Source: a virus. From it: 38,406 nucleotides of DNA. A model generated the notes under the pieces. The model worked only from the letters and a program-made list of their open reading frames with translations, searched no databases and was not told the DNA's origin. Shown one piece after another: positions 9,865 to 38,343 of this stretch (positions are counted from its first letter, which is position 1; every line of letters begins with the position of its first letter). The stretch is taken from IMG/VR virus record IMGVR_UViG_3300024185_000019, positions 1-38,406 of that record. One strand, written 5' to 3'. The position numbers were made by a program, and so were the translations under genes.

Positions 9865-10652
9865 TTGCACACCTCCTTTAGTTGTTTAATATCATCAGGC
9901 ACTTTATATTTTATATCATCATACAACTTCATAGCAACTGTATCAACGCCTGTCCATAGCTCAATCTCTCTTCTGAACTGTAAAGTTTTATCCATGGCAT
10001 CAGGATCAAGTGCTATGACTACCTTTCGATACTCACCCACCTTATCCATATGCTTAGTGGATAGTGATGTACCAAGGATAGCCAAGGCTGTGATGTTAGG
10101 TAGCAGCTGGCTTGCAACTACTGCAGAAACGACATCTTCTACAATTAATACGACATCCCCACTGCCCACTGTGAAGTAATCAGCCTCACCAGTATAGCGA
10201 TACCACTTAGGCATGGTGCGCTTACCTACTGCACGTCCCACTGCATCAATCAAACGTCCACGGTAGTGTATAGGAAACACTACACGCTCCTGTTTAACAT
10301 CGTACATCAAGCCAGGATAGTCGCGGATACCCCAGCGCAAAACAAAATCCTTGTGCTTGGTATGATCAAAGGTAGGGTTGACTAGGTAAGCAGGTATTTC
10401 CATGGTCTCAGCCTCTTCTGTGCCTCTCTCAGGCGGTGGTCTCATACGCATAATAATCTCTGCTGCTGTCATGTCTGTCTCATAGATGCCACCCACCCGA
10501 CAGCCTAGCTTGTAGCAGTTATACTTCATTGTGCCGCCATCGTTCATGGCTGTGAATGTACCCTTACCCTTGCACTCAGGGCAGTTATTACGATAGGTGT
10601 CACCATCGTGTAGGTTTAGGGCTTCAACGTAACTACGAATGTTCATCGTCAT
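9861..10652 (-). CDS. Zinc-finger TOPRIM primase
   Basis: 263 residues from ATG 10652 (AGAGGA upstream; 10646 is an alternative). The N-terminal zinc ribbon has Cys24, Cys27, Cys46 and Cys51 (CPECKGKGTF, YNCYKLGC), as in T7-type primases. The TOPRIM domain has Glu172 (LIVEDVVSAVVAS) and the DPD motif at 216-218 (VVIALDPDAMDK), the metal ligands of RNA primer synthesis. No helicase domain is fused; a separate DnaB-type helicase lies downstream. The gene start overlaps the integrase end by 20 bases in another frame. Confidence 0.92.
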   Translation of the reverse strand: MTMNIRSYVEALNLHDGDTYRNNCPECKGKGTFTAMNDGGTMKYNCYKLGCRVGGIYETDMTAAEIIMRMRPPPERGTEEAETMEIPAYLVNPTFDHTKHKDFVLRWGIRDYPGLMYDVKQERVVFPIHYRGRLIDAVGRAVGKRTMPKWYRYTGEADYFTVGSGDVVLIVEDVVSAVVASQLLPNITALAILGTSLSTKHMDKVGEYRKVVIALDPDAMDKTLQFRREIELWTGVDTVAMKLYDDIKYKVPDDIKQLKEVCK

Positions 10653-11550
10653 CGTTTCCTCTAGCTGATAGTGCCTTGGATGCACCACTGAATGTGTTGA
10701 CCATGTAAGGCTTTATGGATGCCACGTTCTTGTGGCCCGTCACCTGCATGATACCTGCTAAGTCTACCCCACCCTCCATCATCTCTGTCACTGCTGTACG
10801 CCGTAAGTCCATAGCTGTCAGAGTGGTAGGTAGATTAGCTTCCTTTAATACATCATTGATAAGATAGCTTATTTCTAGTTTGTCATAGGGCGAGTACGCA
10901 TTAGCGCGTGGCTTTATACGGGGCGCTACATATTCTTGAAACCCAAAGTCTTCCTTCTGCTGGCGCAGCATATCGCACAACCCTGTTGAGATAGGTAAAT
11001 GTATCTCTGCGTTGCGCTTACTCTGTGTCAAGTCCAAGCGGCACTGGGTTAAGTCTAGCTTATCCCACTTGAGAAGGCGCATGTCACCAACACGCTGCCC
11101 CCAATCATATGCCATGTGGACAATCAGACCAATGCTGCGCCAGCGGAAGTCGCCATAAGCTGTTGCAAGGAATGACTGCACTTGATCGCGGCTCCACAGT
11201 ACACGCCGTGGTTGACCAGACCTGGTTTGTACCAGAGCTACAGGATCATGCGTCATTACGTCATGTCTCATTGAGTGCCTCCACGCAGTAGATAGCACAG
11301 ACTTGCGGTAGTTAGCTGTCCGAACCCCGACAGACAGCCACTCCTCATAAGCCTGAGTTAGATGACGTACCTTGATATTCTTATGGCGATAATCCCCAAG
11401 AGCCTTACCCTCAACCACTGTGCCAGATACGGCAGCAAGATGGATGTCATAATCTTTCTGTGTAGAACCTGCCAGACGACCAAATACAGCAGATTTACTA
11501 TAAAAATCAATGACTTCCTGTAGTGTTGATGAAGCCTTGGGGATATTCAT
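10633..11550 (-). CDS. int: Tyrosine recombinase / integrase
   Basis: 305 residues. The N-terminal core-binding region (about 10-105) precedes the catalytic domain: Arg153 (WGQRVGDMRLL), Lys178 (TQSKRNAEI), Arg250 (AMDLRRTAV), His273 (VTGHKNVA) and the nucleophile Tyr282 (IKPYMVNT). The usual HxxR box reads Met247-Asp-Leu-Arg250, so its His is replaced. The other key residues are intact, so it is probably active. It could integrate the phage or act in resolution. It lies inside the replication operon, between tiny genes and the primase, with an AAAGGAGACTAAC ribosome site. No tRNA-like attachment site was recognised next to it. Confidence 0.93.
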   Translation of the reverse strand: MNIPKASSTLQEVIDFYSKSAVFGRLAGSTQKDYDIHLAAVSGTVVEGKALGDYRHKNIKVRHLTQAYEEWLSVGVRTANYRKSVLSTAWRHSMRHDVMTHDPVALVQTRSGQPRRVLWSRDQVQSFLATAYGDFRWRSIGLIVHMAYDWGQRVGDMRLLKWDKLDLTQCRLDLTQSKRNAEIHLPISTGLCDMLRQQKEDFGFQEYVAPRIKPRANAYSPYDKLEISYLINDVLKEANLPTTLTAMDLRRTAVTEMMEGGVDLAGIMQVTGHKNVASIKPYMVNTFSGASKALSARGNDDDEHS

Positions 11551-20878: not shown

Positions 20879-21247
20879 ATGGCTAGAGCACTAACAGAAA
20901 AGCAGCAGCGCTTCCTAGAGGTACTCTTTGATGAGGCTGGCGGTGATGCTGTAGCTGCTAAGAAGATGGCGGGTTATGATCCTGCGTCTAGCACATCAGC
21001 TATTGTAGAAGCGCTTAAGGATGAGATCGGTGACAGGACACGTACATATTTTGCTCGTACTGCCCCTAAGGCTGCTATGGCAATGGTTGGTGCCTTGTAT
21101 GATCCTACAGAGCTAGGCATAAAAGAGAAGATGGTTGCAGCTAAGGACTTGCTAGATCGTGCAGGACTTGGTAAGGTAGACAAAGTAGACGTAACATCTG
21201 GCGGGGGTGTATTCTATCTGCCACCAAAAGAAGGTACAAACGAATAA
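20879..21247 (+). CDS. terS: Terminase small subunit
   Basis: 122 residues. The N-terminal helix-turn-helix type start MARALTEKQQRFLEVLFDEA, then AAKKMAGYD, is typical of small terminase subunits that bind the packaging site and hand DNA to the large subunit. A middle region (AAMAMVGALYDPTELGIKEK, MVAAKDLLDRAGLGKVDKVD) is the usual oligomerisation part, ending in a beta strand VFYLPP. It lies directly before the large subunit. The stop TAA is followed by an unusual ATA (see next entry). Confidence 0.88.
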   Translation: MARALTEKQQRFLEVLFDEAGGDAVAAKKMAGYDPASSTSAIVEALKDEIGDRTRTYFARTAPKAAMAMVGALYDPTELGIKEKMVAAKDLLDRAGLGKVDKVDVTSGGGVFYLPPKEGTNE

Positions 21248-21660
21248 TACCTGAGAGAGATTTAGGGTTCTGGCAGTTACCATTACCTCCCAAGAACCAC
21301 ACAAAAGAATGGCACCCTATAGTTAAGATAACAAAGAGGATACCCTTTGGTTACAGGATAGATCCTGAGAACGACAGACTACTCTTACCCATTGAATCAG
21401 AGCTTGAAGCTTTAGAGCTTGCAAAGCGCCACCTTAAGCAGTATAGTTATCGTGCAGTAGCACAGTGGTTAAGCAAAGAGACTGGTAGAACTATAACGTT
21501 CACAGGGTTAAAGAAGAGAATTGAAGTTGAGCAGAAACGTAGAAAAGCAATTGCAATTAAACGCAAGCTTGCCAAGTGGCTCCAAGAAACGCTTGAGCAA
21601 ATCGAAAAGCTTGAAAAGAAAGGTGCAGGAGCCTACACAGAACCTGACAAAGATAGCTGA
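21247..21660 (+). CDS. Terminase-associated HTH domain, in a different frame from TerL; ATA start
   Basis: An uninterrupted frame of 137 codons with clear protein character: IPERDLGFWQLPLPPKNHTK, RIPFGYRIDPENDRLLLPIE, LKQYSYRAVAQWLSKETGRT (helix-turn-helix like) and GLKKRIEVEQKRRKAIAIKR. No ATG, GTG or TTG is in frame. The expected start, coupled to the terS stop as TAATG, reads TAATA, so AUA would be the start, with AGAAGG about nine bases upstream. I recall this domain as the N-terminal part of TerL in related marine phages; here the TerL core continues one frame over (+1). Alternatives: a frameshift, a sequence error, or an independent protein. Confidence 0.55.
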   Translation: MPERDLGFWQLPLPPKNHTKEWHPIVKITKRIPFGYRIDPENDRLLLPIESELEALELAKRHLKQYSYRAVAQWLSKETGRTITFTGLKKRIEVEQKRRKAIAIKRKLAKWLQETLEQIEKLEKKGAGAYTEPDKDS

Positions 21661-23116
21661 AGAACCTGTAGTAGAAACTGTACCTGCACAAGTTAAGGCA
21701 CCTGAATACGATGTAGAAGAAGCTCAGCAGGTAGTATTTAAGCCTAACCCTGGCCCACAGACAAACTTCCTTAGTGCGTCAGAACGAGAAGTACTTTATG
21801 GTGGAAGTGCTGGTGGAGGTAAGAGTTACGCCATGTTGGCTGATCCTCTACATGGACTGAATGATCCTAACTTCTCAGGACTACTAGTAAGACATACTAC
21901 AGAAGAATTAAGAGAGCTAATACAAAAAAGTCAGGAGTTATATCCTCGTGCTATACCTGGAATTAAGTGGTCGGAACGTAAATCGCAATGGACTTCTCCT
22001 CAGGGTGGCAGACTTTGGATGTCTTATCTTGATAAAGACACGGATGTCACACGCTATCAAGGTCAGGCTTTTAACTGGATTGGATTCGATGAGCTTACCC
22101 AATGGTCTAGCCCTTACGCTTGGGATTATATGAGATCAAGATTACGTAGTAGTTTCAAGGACTTAGGTCTTTATATGAGAGCTACAACCAACCCTGGAGG
22201 AAGTGGACATGCTTGGGTTAAAAAAATGTTTATTGATCCTGCAGTCGGGAATCAGCCGTTTTGGGCAACTAACATTGAAACAGGTGAAACGATTACGTTC
22301 CCTAGAGGGCATAGTAAAGAGGGTACACCTCTATTTAAAAGACGTTTTATTCCTGCCTCTCTATTTGACAATCCGTACTTGGCTGAAGCTGGCGACTATG
22401 AAGCAATGCTTCTCTCGCTTCCAGAGCATCAGCGCAAGCAGTTACTTGAAGGTAACTGGGATGTTAATGAGGGTGCCGCTTTTCCAGAGTTTGACAGAAA
22501 AGTACATGTTGTGGACGCATTCGATGTACCTGACTCTTGGGCAAAGTTTAGGGCTTGCGATTATGGTTATGGTAGTTACACTGGTGTTCTGTGGTTTGCT
22601 GTAGCACCTGACGAACAACTAATTGTGTACCGTGAGATGTATGTGTCTAAGGTTACAGCTTCTGATCTAGCAGACTTGATCTTGGAAGCAGAAGCAAGAG
22701 ATGGTACAATAAGATACGGGGTGCTGGATAGTTCTTTATGGCACAACCGTGGCGACACTGGGCCTAGCTTGGCAGAGCAGATGAATCACAAAGGGTGCCG
22801 TTGGCGTCCGTCTGACAGGTCAAGGGGTTCACGTGTCGCGGGTAAGAACGAGATACATAGACGGTTAAAGGTGGATGAGTTCACTGAAAAGCCTCAACTA
22901 GTATTTATGGATAGCTGTACAAATACTATTGCACAGATACCTAGTATTCCTCTGGACAAGCGAAACCCAGAAGATGTTGATACTCATGCAGAGGATCACT
23001 TGTATGACGCTCTAAGGTACGGAATCATGACACGTCCACGCAGCAGCATATGGGACTACAACCCAGCAAAACAACGCACTGGCTTTCAGGCTAGTGATCC
23101 ATCATTCGGGTATTGA
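21521..23116 (+). CDS. terL: Terminase large subunit (packaging ATPase-nuclease)
   Basis: Packages DNA into the capsid. ATPase: Walker A GGSAGGGKS at residues 94-102 (counted from TTG 21521), Walker B WIGFDE at 186-191, and YMRATTNPGG. Nuclease: RACDYGYG with its Asp, the GVLDSSLW segment, and DTHAEDHLYDALRYG near the end. There is no ATG before MLADPL, so the true start is unclear: TTG 21521, another in-frame TTG or GTG, or fusion by frameshift from the overlapping frame. Residues 1-40 (in this frame) look like a shadow of the upstream domain; the homologous part starts near TKIAEEP. It is in the same frame as terS. Confidence 0.93.
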   Translation: MKLSRNVEKQLQLNASLPSGSKKRLSKSKSLKRKVQEPTQNLTKIAEEPVVETVPAQVKAPEYDVEEAQQVVFKPNPGPQTNFLSASEREVLYGGSAGGGKSYAMLADPLHGLNDPNFSGLLVRHTTEELRELIQKSQELYPRAIPGIKWSERKSQWTSPQGGRLWMSYLDKDTDVTRYQGQAFNWIGFDELTQWSSPYAWDYMRSRLRSSFKDLGLYMRATTNPGGSGHAWVKKMFIDPAVGNQPFWATNIETGETITFPRGHSKEGTPLFKRRFIPASLFDNPYLAEAGDYEAMLLSLPEHQRKQLLEGNWDVNEGAAFPEFDRKVHVVDAFDVPDSWAKFRACDYGYGSYTGVLWFAVAPDEQLIVYREMYVSKVTASDLADLILEAEARDGTIRYGVLDSSLWHNRGDTGPSLAEQMNHKGCRWRPSDRSRGSRVAGKNEIHRRLKVDEFTEKPQLVFMDSCTNTIAQIPSIPLDKRNPEDVDTHAEDHLYDALRYGIMTRPRSSIWDYNPAKQRTGFQASDPSFGY

Positions 23117-33686: not shown

Positions 33687-34061
33687 ATGACCGCACCAAA
33701 CATCGTAAATGTCAGCACAATCACTGGCAAAACAGATCAGATTGCATTATCTAGTACAGCTGCAACAGTACTGGTTTCTAATCCAGCTTCTTCTGGTAAA
33801 GTAGTTAAAGTAAACATGATTATAGTAGCAAACGTAGATGGGCTAAATGCCTGTGACGTTACTGTAGACTTGCATAGTGCAGCAGCAGGTGGCGGCACAG
33901 CCTTCTCTATTGTATCTACTGCATCTGTAGCTGCTGACTCTTCCCTTGTAGCACTAGACAAGAGTACCGCTATGTATTTAGAAGAGGATATGTCTCTCAC
34001 TGTCACTGCTGGCACAGCAAACGACTTGGAAGTAATTGTTTCATACGAAGAGATTAGCTAA
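33687..34061 (+). CDS. Beta-sandwich virion protein (124 aa)
   Basis: 124 residues: MTAPNIVNVSTITGKTDQIA, then VVKVNMIIVANVDGLNACDV, ending VALDKSTAMYLEEDMSLTVT then ANDLEVIVSYEEIS. The order of strands and the terminal SYEEI pattern match the protein at 19392-19754. Found among fibre genes, so it may decorate the tail or head. Ribosome site AAAGGAGAAAC. Confidence 0.75.
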   Translation: MTAPNIVNVSTITGKTDQIALSSTAATVLVSNPASSGKVVKVNMIIVANVDGLNACDVTVDLHSAAAGGGTAFSIVSTASVAADSSLVALDKSTAMYLEEDMSLTVTAGTANDLEVIVSYEEIS

Positions 34062-35482
34062 TGCGGTTCATTGGTAACGCCCCTGTAGATGGTGAAGTTC
34101 GTGCTATCGCCTCTGGTGCGTTAGCCACTGGAGATACTGTTGTCGTTAATAGCGATGGGACTGTGAGTGTTATTTCAGGTTCTAGCACCTCTGAGTCTGC
34201 TGGATCGGATACAGTCTTCACCTCTGGTATTACGCCAAATAGCACTGCGGCTGTATATGATACCAACTCCAATAAAGTTGTAGTTTTTGTAGCTACAACA
34301 GGCACTGGTTATGCTTACGTTGGAACAGTTAGCGGAACATCAATCAACTTCACCTCTGGTACAAACTTTGAGTCTGGATCGGCCACTTTTGTAAAAGCTG
34401 CTTATGATCCAGTATCAGGAAAAATTTTAGTGCTATGGCAAACGGCTTCTCTCTTTAGGGCAAGGATGGCTACGGTAAGTGGTAGCTCCATTTCATATGG
34501 CTCTATTGTGACAGTAGATGCTGATAAATTAGAAGAAAGTGCCATTGCTTATGACACTGTAAATCAAAAGTTTGTTATTGCGTACACTGATTGGACAAAC
34601 AATAATAGATACGGCACGGCTATAATAGGCACAGTCAGCGGTACAAGTATTAGTTTTGGCACCCCAGTAATCTTTAGATCAGCAAGAACAGACGCTACTT
34701 TTGCGTGTGTTTATGACGTATCTTCTGGTAAGACTGTTATTGCGTATAGTGAAGTAGCAGGATCAAATAACATAAATGCCATTGTGGGAACCATTAGCGG
34801 CACATCAATTAGCTTTGGAAGTGCGGTTACAGTTTCTACAACGGGATCATATACGACTGGTGTGTATGACTCCGCTTCTCAGAAAACTGTTATTTTTTAC
34901 AAGAATAGCACAGGCAGAGCCAGAGTCGGCACAGTATCTGGCACATCTATTAGCTTTGGTACAGAAGCTGTCTTTGGAACCAACCCCGCCTATATCAGCA
35001 CTGTGTACGATACAACGGCACAAAAAATTGTTGTCTCTTACAACGAGAATTTTGCCACTACCGAAATGCAATCTGCGAAAGTTTCAGGCACTGATATTAC
35101 TTTTGATAGCCCCCTAGAAGTTTCAAATAGTGTCTACACAGATGCTCTTTCTTCTGCGTATGACCCCGACACAGGTAAAGTAATCTTGACTTACAAAGAC
35201 AATGGCAACTCTAACAACGGCACTTACGTTGTTTACCAAGCGGGTTACACCTCCACCAACCTCACCTCTGAAAACTTCATAGGCTTTGCCAATAGCGGCT
35301 ACGCTGACGGTCAATCCGCAGCACTTAACTCGACCTGCTCCGTGGACAAGAACCAATCTGGTTTAACGGCTGGCGAGACTTACTATGTGCAGACTGACGG
35401 CACTTTGGGTACAACCCCTGCTGATCCGTCTGTATTGGCTGGTACAGCCATCTCTTCTAACTCTATCATCGTAAAAGGATAA
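34061..35482 (+). CDS. Fibre/adhesin with one seven-repeat block (473 aa)
   Basis: 473 residues in three parts. The N-terminal module (MRFIGNAPVDGEVRAIASGA, LATGDTVVVNSDGTVSV) and the C-terminal module (QSGLTAGETYYVQTDGTLGT, then SIIVKG) are shared with the 861-residue protein downstream. Between them, seven repeats of about 50 residues each read roughly F-E-S-x(8-12)-AYDS-xx-NKVVIAY...G-T-A-IVGTVSGTSISFG, the last stopping after GTYVVYQ. Four strands per unit and seven units suggest a beta-propeller, probably a receptor-binding head. The fold is inference. The start shares a base with the previous stop (TAATG). Confidence 0.85.
   Translation: MRFIGNAPVDGEVRAIASGALATGDTVVVNSDGTVSVISGSSTSESAGSDTVFTSGITPNSTAAVYDTNSNKVVVFVATTGTGYAYVGTVSGTSINFTSGTNFESGSATFVKAAYDPVSGKILVLWQTASLFRARMATVSGSSISYGSIVTVDADKLEESAIAYDTVNQKFVIAYTDWTNNNRYGTAIIGTVSGTSISFGTPVIFRSARTDATFACVYDVSSGKTVIAYSEVAGSNNINAIVGTISGTSISFGSAVTVSTTGSYTTGVYDSASQKTVIFYKNSTGRARVGTVSGTSISFGTEAVFGTNPAYISTVYDTTAQKIVVSYNENFATTEMQSAKVSGTDITFDSPLEVSNSVYTDALSSAYDPDTGKVILTYKDNGNSNNGTYVVYQAGYTSTNLTSENFIGFANSGYADGQSAALNSTCSVDKNQSGLTAGETYYVQTDGTLGTTPADPSVLAGTAISSNSIIVKG
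34202..35248 (+). repeat. Seven-unit protein repeat in first fibre
   Basis: Seven in-frame units of about 150 bases encoding AYD/VYD-xxxxK-(V/I)(V/I)-(A/F)Y and GTVSGTSISFG motifs. The GTVSGTSISFG-type segment follows units 1-6 but not unit 7. Confidence 0.85.
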
Positions 35483-35488
35483 ACTAAG

Positions 35489-35752
35489 ATGAAAACTATC
35501 GTTGAAACATCAAGCGGTCTGAGCAAGTATCTCCTTGCTGATGACGTGACAATCACAGCTACTGCTGATAACATTACTGTAGGTGATCCTGCACAGTTCA
35601 TCATTGGTGACTTGAACAGCACCACAGTGACCATCACCGACAACGTGACAAACGCCCCAGAAGACTGGTCTGGCAATAAGTACACGTTTGACGGCACTAC
35701 ATGGACACTGAACCCTAATTGGGTAGACCCAGAAGCAGAAGACGGGGAATAA
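35489..35752 (+). CDS. Small conserved fibre-locus protein (87 aa)
   Basis: 87 residues: MKTIVETSSGLSKYLLADDV, then NITVGDPAQFIIGDLNSTTV, NAPEDWSGNKYTFDGTTWTL and NPNWVDPEAEDGE. The pattern SKYLxADD...VGDPxxFIIGDxN...DWxGxKYxFDGTxWxLNP is common beside tail-fibre genes in cyanophages and other marine phages, so it may be a fibre chaperone or tip protein; the role is unproven. It sits between the two repeat-bearing fibre genes. Confidence 0.82.
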   Translation: MKTIVETSSGLSKYLLADDVTITATADNITVGDPAQFIIGDLNSTTVTITDNVTNAPEDWSGNKYTFDGTTWTLNPNWVDPEAEDGE

Positions 35753-35757
35753 TATAA

Positions 35758-38343
35758 ATGCGCATCATTGGTAACGCTGAAAAAGCGAGAGAAGTACAGG
35801 CCGTTGCCAGTGGTGTGTTGCCCAGTGGACAGCCTGTTGTGGTGAACAGCGATGGGACTGTGAGTGTTGCGGCTGAAACAAGCATTACTCAAGGGGTAGG
35901 AAGCAATACAACATTTGAGTCTGCTACTAGTAGTTGGAACGCTTCTGCTTACGACTCAAATGTAAAACGAATAGTTATAGCTTATAGTGACGAGGGTAAT
36001 TCTAGTGCTGGTACTGCTGTAGTTTGTGCAGTGGACGGTACAAGTCTTACCTTTGGAACACCTGTTGTATTCTCTTCTAATGAAGTAAACCATATTTCTG
36101 TCGCTTTTGATTCCTCAAACAATAAAATTGTTATTGCTTGGCACAACTATAATTCTGGTACAGACACAGATACAGGAAAAGCTATCGTTGGAACTGTAAA
36201 TAGTTCTAACAATTCTATATCATTTGGCTCTGCTACAACTTTTGAGTCTGGTAATTGCGATTCAACAGGTTGTGGGTTTGACTCTACTAATAATAAGATT
36301 GTTATAGCCTACAAAGATCATAACAATTCTAGCCGTGGAACAGCCATAGTTGGCACTGTAAGTGGCACAAGCATTAGCTTTGGTAGTGCAGTTGTTTTTG
36401 ACGCTACACCAACTACTCGTAATATAGTTATGTTTGATTCTTCTAATGATAAAATTGTTATTGCATATTCAGATCAAGCTGATGGAGATGATGGCTTTGC
36501 TATTGTTGGCACTGTATCAGGTACGTCTATTTCTTTTGGGTCTCGTACAAAGTTTGAAACAGGCGGTGTGTTTGGGAATTGGATGGGGGGCGCTTTTGAT
36601 TCAACAAACAATAAAATAGTTATTGCCTACGCCGATAATAATAATAGTGCATATGGAACAGGAATAGTAGGAACAGTAAGCGGAACATCTATTAGCTTTG
36701 GTACTCCTACTGTTTTTGAGTCGGCAAACTCAAATTACATCAATGTTGCTTACAACACTGCTGCTGGCAAAGTGATTATAGCCTATCAAGACAAAGGCAA
36801 TTCGGATACAGGGACGTATGTTGAAGGTACTGTCTCAGGCACATCTATTAGTTTTAACACACCAGCCACGTTCCCAAGTACGGCAGACGCTATTTATATA
36901 TCTGTTGCTTATGACTCAGATCAATATGCCTCTATCATTTCGTTTAGAAATACTGACAATTCTTCACATGGTACGGCTTTTTCATACCAAAGCACTGCAT
37001 CAGTCACCAACCTCACCTCAGAGAACTACATCGGCATGTCTGATGGGGTGGTTAATGTTGATAGCCAGACAGAAGATATAGGCTCTGCATCAATTTTTGA
37101 AAGTGCTGATGTTCAACACCTCAGCGCTGCTTTTGATAGCAATTCAAATAAAGTAGTTATTGTTTATAGAGACAATGCTAATTCATATTACGGGACTGCT
37201 GTCATAGGCACAGTGAATGGTACAAGTATTAGCTTTGGAAGTCCTGTTATTTTTAATAGCAGAAATGTTAACTATAATTCGGTAGTTTATGATAGCAATG
37301 CTCAAAGAATAGTTATTGCTTACACTGATACTGGCCCAGATATAGGCACTGCTATCGTCGGAAATGTAAGCGGTACATCCATTAGTTTTGGAACAAAAGC
37401 TGTTTATCAAAATTCAGCCAGTTACGATTCTTCTATTGTCTATGACCCTAATTCAAATAAAGTAGTTATTGCTTTTAAACATTATGCTAATGCAGAAAGG
37501 GGTAAGGCTGTTGTTGGTACGGTGGATGGCAGCGGTATTAGCTTTGGTTCAGTAACTACATTTGAAATGGGTCAAGCGCAACGTATTGTTTCTACCTTTG
37601 ACACTCATAATAATAAGGTAGTTATTGCTTACAGAACTAGCGCAGGTAAAGCTGTAGTTGGAACTGTATCGGGAACGAGTATTAGTTTCGGAACTGCTGT
37701 TACATTTAAGAATGAAGTTACAGAAGCTATCGGGCTTGCCTTTGACACCAGTAATAATAAGGTTGTGTTAGGTTATCTAAATGGAGCTGGTGATAAAGGC
37801 CATGCCGTGGTCGGGACTGTATCGGGAACCTCTATTAGCTTTGGTGCAGAGGCAACTTTTGAAAGTGGCGCTGCGTATGAAATTAAGCCTGTCTTTGACA
37901 GCAGTATTAATAAAACTATTATGGTTTATCAAGATGGTGGAAATTCTGATAATGGGACAGTTGCAGTGGGAACTGTAAGCGGCACTTCTATTAGCTTCGA
38001 AGATCCAACTGTTTTCGCTGCGGTAGACATTAAGCTATTAGCAACTGTTTTTGATAGTAGTAATAATAGAGTTGTTACTGCGTATAGAGACGGGGATAAT
38101 TCTAATTACGGTACATCTGTAGTCTTCCAGCCAGGCTACCAAGACATAGTCAGAGGCCAAGTCGCAGATGGTGTCAATGCTGAGATCAATATCAAGGGCG
38201 CTGTGGCTGAGAACCAAGTAGGCCTCACCGCAGGCCAAAGTTACTACGTCCAGACGGACGGCACACTGGGTACGACACCAGCAGACCCAAGTGTATTCGC
38301 TGGCACTGCTGTAGCTGCAACCAAACTTATCGTGAAGGGCTAA
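35758..38343 (+). CDS. Fibre/adhesin with two seven-repeat blocks (861 aa)
   Basis: 861 residues. The N-terminal module (MRIIGNAEKAREVQAVASGV, SGQPVVVNSDGTVSV) and C-terminal module (QVGLTAGQSYYVQTDGTLGT, TKLIVKG) match the 473-residue fibre. Between them lie two separate blocks of exactly seven repeats each (residues about 48-411 and 442-794), split by a linker containing TNLTSENYIGMSD, which is also found once near the end of the shorter fibre. Each unit has AFDSxxNKVVIAY and GTVSGTSISFG. The repeats use A/T-rich codons while the end modules are richer in C and G, suggesting separate origins. Probably a double beta-propeller receptor-binding protein (inferred). Confidence 0.87.
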   Translation: MRIIGNAEKAREVQAVASGVLPSGQPVVVNSDGTVSVAAETSITQGVGSNTTFESATSSWNASAYDSNVKRIVIAYSDEGNSSAGTAVVCAVDGTSLTFGTPVVFSSNEVNHISVAFDSSNNKIVIAWHNYNSGTDTDTGKAIVGTVNSSNNSISFGSATTFESGNCDSTGCGFDSTNNKIVIAYKDHNNSSRGTAIVGTVSGTSISFGSAVVFDATPTTRNIVMFDSSNDKIVIAYSDQADGDDGFAIVGTVSGTSISFGSRTKFETGGVFGNWMGGAFDSTNNKIVIAYADNNNSAYGTGIVGTVSGTSISFGTPTVFESANSNYINVAYNTAAGKVIIAYQDKGNSDTGTYVEGTVSGTSISFNTPATFPSTADAIYISVAYDSDQYASIISFRNTDNSSHGTAFSYQSTASVTNLTSENYIGMSDGVVNVDSQTEDIGSASIFESADVQHLSAAFDSNSNKVVIVYRDNANSYYGTAVIGTVNGTSISFGSPVIFNSRNVNYNSVVYDSNAQRIVIAYTDTGPDIGTAIVGNVSGTSISFGTKAVYQNSASYDSSIVYDPNSNKVVIAFKHYANAERGKAVVGTVDGSGISFGSVTTFEMGQAQRIVSTFDTHNNKVVIAYRTSAGKAVVGTVSGTSISFGTAVTFKNEVTEAIGLAFDTSNNKVVLGYLNGAGDKGHAVVGTVSGTSISFGAEATFESGAAYEIKPVFDSSINKTIMVYQDGGNSDNGTVAVGTVSGTSISFEDPTVFAAVDIKLLATVFDSSNNRVVTAYRDGDNSNYGTSVVFQPGYQDIVRGQVADGVNAEINIKGAVAENQVGLTAGQSYYVQTDGTLGTTPADPSVFAGTAVAATKLIVKG
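35899..38138 (+). repeat. Two seven-unit protein repeat blocks in second fibre
   Basis: Block 1 spans about 35899-36990 and block 2 about 37081-38138, each with seven units of about 156 bases. In both, unit 7 lacks the SISFG segment and ends GTAFSYQ or GTSVVFQ. Consensus unit: F-E-S...A(Y/F)DS..NK(I/V)VIAY.D..NS..GTAIVGTVSGTSISFG. Confidence 0.87.

Follow-up and report, generated by a model that had tools for sequence, protein, structure and literature searches.

How is a long reading frame translated when it holds none of the usual start codons, and does it belong to the terminase gene that it overlaps? The question is raised by a frame, here termed A, in a 38,406-nt sequence from an IMG/VR virus record (the whole of this stretch is referred to as the window). 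Frame A is open from position 21175 to a TGA at 21658-21660 and its 161 stop-to-stop codons include no ATG, GTG or TTG; on both strands of the whole window, it is the sole stop-to-stop frame of at least 90 codons with this property. It lies between the genes of the small (terS) and large (terL) terminase subunits, and an earlier note had described it there as a frame of 137 codons beginning with ATA at a junction that reads TAATA. These observations were confirmed (the terS stop TAA is followed by TA), as was the frame relation: A ends in TGA, TerL is read in the +1 frame relative to A, and terS has the same frame as TerL. The further proposal that A encodes the N-terminal domain of TerL did not hold. 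Rather, the comparisons presented here indicate that A is very probably an independent gene with an AUA start coupled to terS termination, and that TerL begins separately at UUG 21527.

A predicted row of three overlapping genes

Judged by their sequences, the packaging genes match those of HMO-2011-type podophages of marine Alphaproteobacteria, which are common marine phages, and are predicted to form a row of three overlapping genes, terS, then A, then terL (Table 1). In profile searches, the terS product matched the small terminase family PHROG 2538 with an E-value of 1e-4; its gene occupies the position of the annotated terS in CRP-207, CRP-603 and others. The TerL frame is open from 21512 to 23116 and its product matched PHROG 979 (E 3e-56) and Pfam Terminase_6N (E 9e-9). 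Identity to Roseobacter phage CRP-207 amounts to 89% for TerL and 76% for A. Outside the packaging genes, two large ORFs at 34061-38343 are built from numerous copies of a VGTVSGTSISFGTP-type repeat and are tail-fibre or adhesin-like, and an ORF on the minus strand at 10633-11550 resembles a tyrosine integrase; some subgroups of HMO-2011-type phages carry a tyrosine integrase (PMC9038755).

Table 1. Positions of the terminase-region features in the window.
Feature	Position	Strand	Remark
terS, terminase small subunit	20879-21247	+	last codon GAA, stop TAA 21245-21247
Shine-Dalgarno-like GAAGG	21230-21234	+	9 nt before ATA
Proposed AUA start codon of gene A	21244-21246	+	overlaps terS stop (ATAA)
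Gene A, 138-aa predicted helix-turn-helix protein	21244-21660	+	stop TGA 21658-21660
TTG start codon of TerL	21527-21529	+	within gene A
terL, terminase large subunit, 529 aa	21527-23116	+	134-nt overlap with gene A, +1 frame

Conservation of an ATA at the terS stop

About 330 related loci, among which 204 A sequences are distinct, were collected from metagenome projects and from isolates by four protein scans, a single DNA-pattern scan and the use of annotated phages. Some of the sequences came from the DNA pattern, which fixed part of the terS end but left free the third base of its final codon. Firstly, all 140 distinct relatives that lack a canonical start at the junction have an ATA that overlaps the stop of terS (as ATAA or ATAG), a recurrence that makes the pattern far beyond chance. 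The AUA start that the earlier note had considered is thus supported; an ATA does stand in place of the expected start, but the conserved one is the first of the ATAATA, at 21244-21246, and not that at 21247-21249, from which the 137 codons had been counted. Of the 140, 130 lack a canonical start throughout the stretch before the conserved part of A, and in the remaining 10 the sole one is a TTG, located 17 nt downstream at a conserved Leu codon that is written TTA, CTA or CTG in other members. The ATA is also the only invariant codon of the A frame near the start: the codon that follows it is of 11 kinds (ATA, AGT, GTA, GCT, AGC, AAA, AGA, GTC, ACT, GGT and GTT).

Secondly, 49 relatives carry an ATG, TTG or GTG 2 nt past the terS stop and with the frame relation unchanged, and in all 49 the codon overlapping the stop is GTA instead of ATA, the final terS codon being the synonymous GAG and not GAA. 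Because the two final residues of terS, Asn-Glu, are conserved as well, free evidence comes only from the third position of the final codon; terS codons farther upstream vary synonymously. When the canonical start of A is in another frame relation to terS, both terS endings are found (GAA in 6 relatives, GAG in 5). Among the 49 relatives with a canonical start 2 nt past the stop, such as L083, a terS GAA with its in-frame ATA never occurs together with the downstream ATG. In these relatives, GAG may act as a short Shine-Dalgarno sequence for the ATG (GAG-UAANN-AUG). According to the A and TerL trees, the type of start switched 4-5 times between ATA and canonical codons, so that independent evolutionary events are few (about 4-5); grouping all ATA members in one clade is rejected by the TerL data (AU test, p-AU 6e-5), and so is one clade of all canonical-start members (p-AU 6e-4). 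Recombination could likewise distribute the type of start among lineages, but both changes would still have moved together.

The ATA is preceded at exactly 9 nt by GAAGG in all 140 distinct ATA-type relatives. This segment also encodes the conserved terS residues Lys-Glu-Gly and its match to a Shine-Dalgarno site extends over only 4 nt (AAGG or AGGU), so its role in initiation is putative.

The same region was considered as a site where a programmed -1 ribosomal frameshift near the terS end would generate a TerS-A fusion. A is indeed in the -1 frame of terS and, in most members, is open upstream of the terS stop for up to 24 codons. However, in several lineages an A-frame stop is found one codon before the ATA (6 sequences, with only CGA in between) or two codons before it (9 sequences), and slippage in L321 and L418 would require the tRNAs on AAC or GAA to pair anew with UAA and CGA. 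A slippery heptamer is lacking, the terS codon at -3 is variable, and a search for RNA folding at the junction revealed nothing beyond shuffled sequences. A shift out of terS would also leave the switch between GAA and GAG in canonical-start relatives unaccounted for. With an in-frame stop one codon before the ATA in some members and no slippery site, such a frameshift is implausible, and we consider it unlikely.

Relation of gene A to TerL

The selection acting on A was estimated over the 85 codons that precede the beginning of TerL. The dN/dS ratio was 0.075 in ATA members and 0.074 in canonical-start members, compared to 0.9-2.8 for the two other frames over the same codons; these values point to strong purifying selection on gene A irrespective of its type of start. 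In HMO-2011, CRP-1, CRP-2, CRP-9, CRP-13, CRP-345 and CRP-603, an A homologue with an ATG start has its own annotation as a hypothetical protein, which supports the production of two separate polypeptides, one of the options of the earlier note. These homologues lie in the same place between terS and terL and overlap terL in the +1 frame as A of the window does; they differ from it by their annotation and by their ATG, which overlaps the terS stop or is close to it. The arrangement of the window, with no canonical start for A, is present in the isolate CRP-207. In this genome (L082, MZ892987) A extends from 2495 to 2914 and GenBank lists only CRP207_gp62 (2756-2914), a 52-aa piece of its tail; the N-terminal two thirds of the gene are omitted because it has no canonical start. 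Gene callers demanding ATG, GTG or TTG thus overlook gene A, leaving a gap in annotation. Furthermore, profile searches did not find the A region in the distant TerLs of Yuavirus, Septimatrevirus, Seuratvirus, Klausavirus and others. Because A is a separate gene in isolates and is missing from distant TerLs, it is best regarded, on sequence grounds, as an independent gene and not as a domain of TerL.

To compare TerL starts, sequences were aligned on the conserved LPSG motif. Among the 175 alignable sequences, 167 have TTG at the position aligned with 21527 of the window; the other 8 have an ATG, which in 7 is placed exactly one codon before and in L085, a distant relative, at this same position. 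Many relatives have a TerL-frame stop one or two codons upstream of the start. TerL is predicted to be translated from its own UUG at 21527, its 134-nt overlap with A being an ordinary gene overlap. The alternative that the earlier note had suggested, a programmed frameshift of +1 (or -2) by which A and TerL make one protein, draws on the +1 relation of TerL to A in 191 of the 192 placeable sequences (including CRP-207), on the overlap of the two frames over more than 130 nt, and on one contig in which both are fused. A shift is not required, however, since a conserved start codon (TTG 21527, or ATG one codon earlier), often just behind a stop, is available to TerL itself; the separate annotation of A in isolates and its lack in distant TerLs also argue against a single protein, which we hold to be very improbable.

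The fused contig, L031, is the sole one with A and TerL in one frame, the fusion being located near locus position 1220. Compared to the near-identical L011, it results from a one-base deletion and is likely an assembly error. In the other 191 placeable sequences, the two parts lie in separate frames; normal starts for A are present in some relatives only.

The structure model of A (mean pLDDT 78) shows a bundle resembling a helix-turn-helix, which leads into a long helix. Searches of A against Pfam, PHROGs and the PDB, by sequence and by fold, returned only weak helix-turn-helix leads. The closest viral fold models are unnamed proteins, a fold search gave W8FPY0, a 668-aa viral protein (E 0.005), and the matches among solved structures, to serine-recombinase and small-terminase DNA-binding domains, are weak (best PDB E 1.1). 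Weak profile matches were obtained to Pfam Phage_Mu_Gp27 in 3 of 37 members (best E 0.004) and to the integrase family phrog_95 in 2 (E 4e-4). For A of the window itself, none of the resemblances to Mu gp27, serine-recombinase or small-terminase helix-turn-helix domains is significant, with no match to Phage_Mu_Gp27 at E 0.1 and none to the PDB by sequence up to E 1. From the position of the gene and its fold, we would guess that A recognises DNA in packaging.

The start codon of A and its possible coupling to terS

Another non-canonical codon might serve as the start of A: CRP-207 has AUU where CRP-603 has AUG, and the window has a second ATA at 21247. Neither codon is conserved, the position after the invariant ATA being the one occupied by 11 kinds of codon, and in L344 and L357 the invariant ATA is the sole near-cognate codon from the upstream stop to the conserved protein; a start elsewhere is therefore slightly less probable still than a fusion of A with TerL. 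A sequencing error or recent breakage of the gene in this genome only, which would account for the lack of any canonical start for A in the window and which the earlier note had also envisaged, is refuted by the low dN/dS of 0.075, by the 140 distinct sequences without a normal A start from many separate metagenome projects and the isolate CRP-207, and by the +1 arrangement in nearly all placeable sequences, and its probability is negligible.

The invariant AUA at 21244, overlapping the terS stop as AUAA, is thus the most probable site at which translation of A would start. AUA is a poor start codon that is normally discriminated against. In AUGA overlaps, the start occupies bases 1-3 and the stop bases 2-4 of the four; AUAA and AUAG share this layout, with AUA in place of AUG and with a coupling that is itself putative. 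As AUAA/AUAG is geometrically an AUGA overlap, termination-coupled re-initiation appears as the most natural route: ribosomes that have just finished TerS would most likely re-initiate on the AUA, which would be decoded by the initiator tRNA, and the GAAGG 9 nt upstream may assist them. The product of the window would then likely begin with Met-Ile-Pro-Glu-Arg-Asp-Leu-Gly-Phe-Trp and have a length near that of its ATG-started relatives. More tentatively, and with somewhat less than even confidence, we propose that the post-termination ribosome steps back onto the overlapping AUA and thereby evades the discrimination against this codon, AUAA/AUAG acting as a swappable stop-start signal that would set the ratio of TerS to A. 

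Conserved AUA starts are very rare in bacteria. Those of Staphylococcus aureus infC, ccpN and citZ function, with ccpN and citZ reporters reaching about 10-30% of AUG levels (PMC13009471), whilst in E. coli O104:H4 a change of the rpoS ATG to ATA is reported to lower RpoS (PMC12864459). Like gene A, the S. aureus genes involve a bacterial-type ribosome and an AUA start, conserved in some cases, with low but real initiation. They are single genes with extended Shine-Dalgarno motifs; in contrast, the AUA of gene A overlaps a preceding stop, has a weak Shine-Dalgarno-like site, is found in phages of marine Alphaproteobacteria and has been exchanged with AUG, GUG or UUG several times. No phage gene with an AUA start was described in the literature searched, the coverage of which was limited. 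If the proposed signal is real, marine phages would have exchanged AUAA/AUAG with AUG, GUG and UUG starts several times. Natural variants with ATA, ATG, GTG or TTG exist for one and the same gene and both types are represented by cultured phages (CRP-207 and CRP-603); the relaxation of start-codon choice by translational coupling is therefore directly testable.
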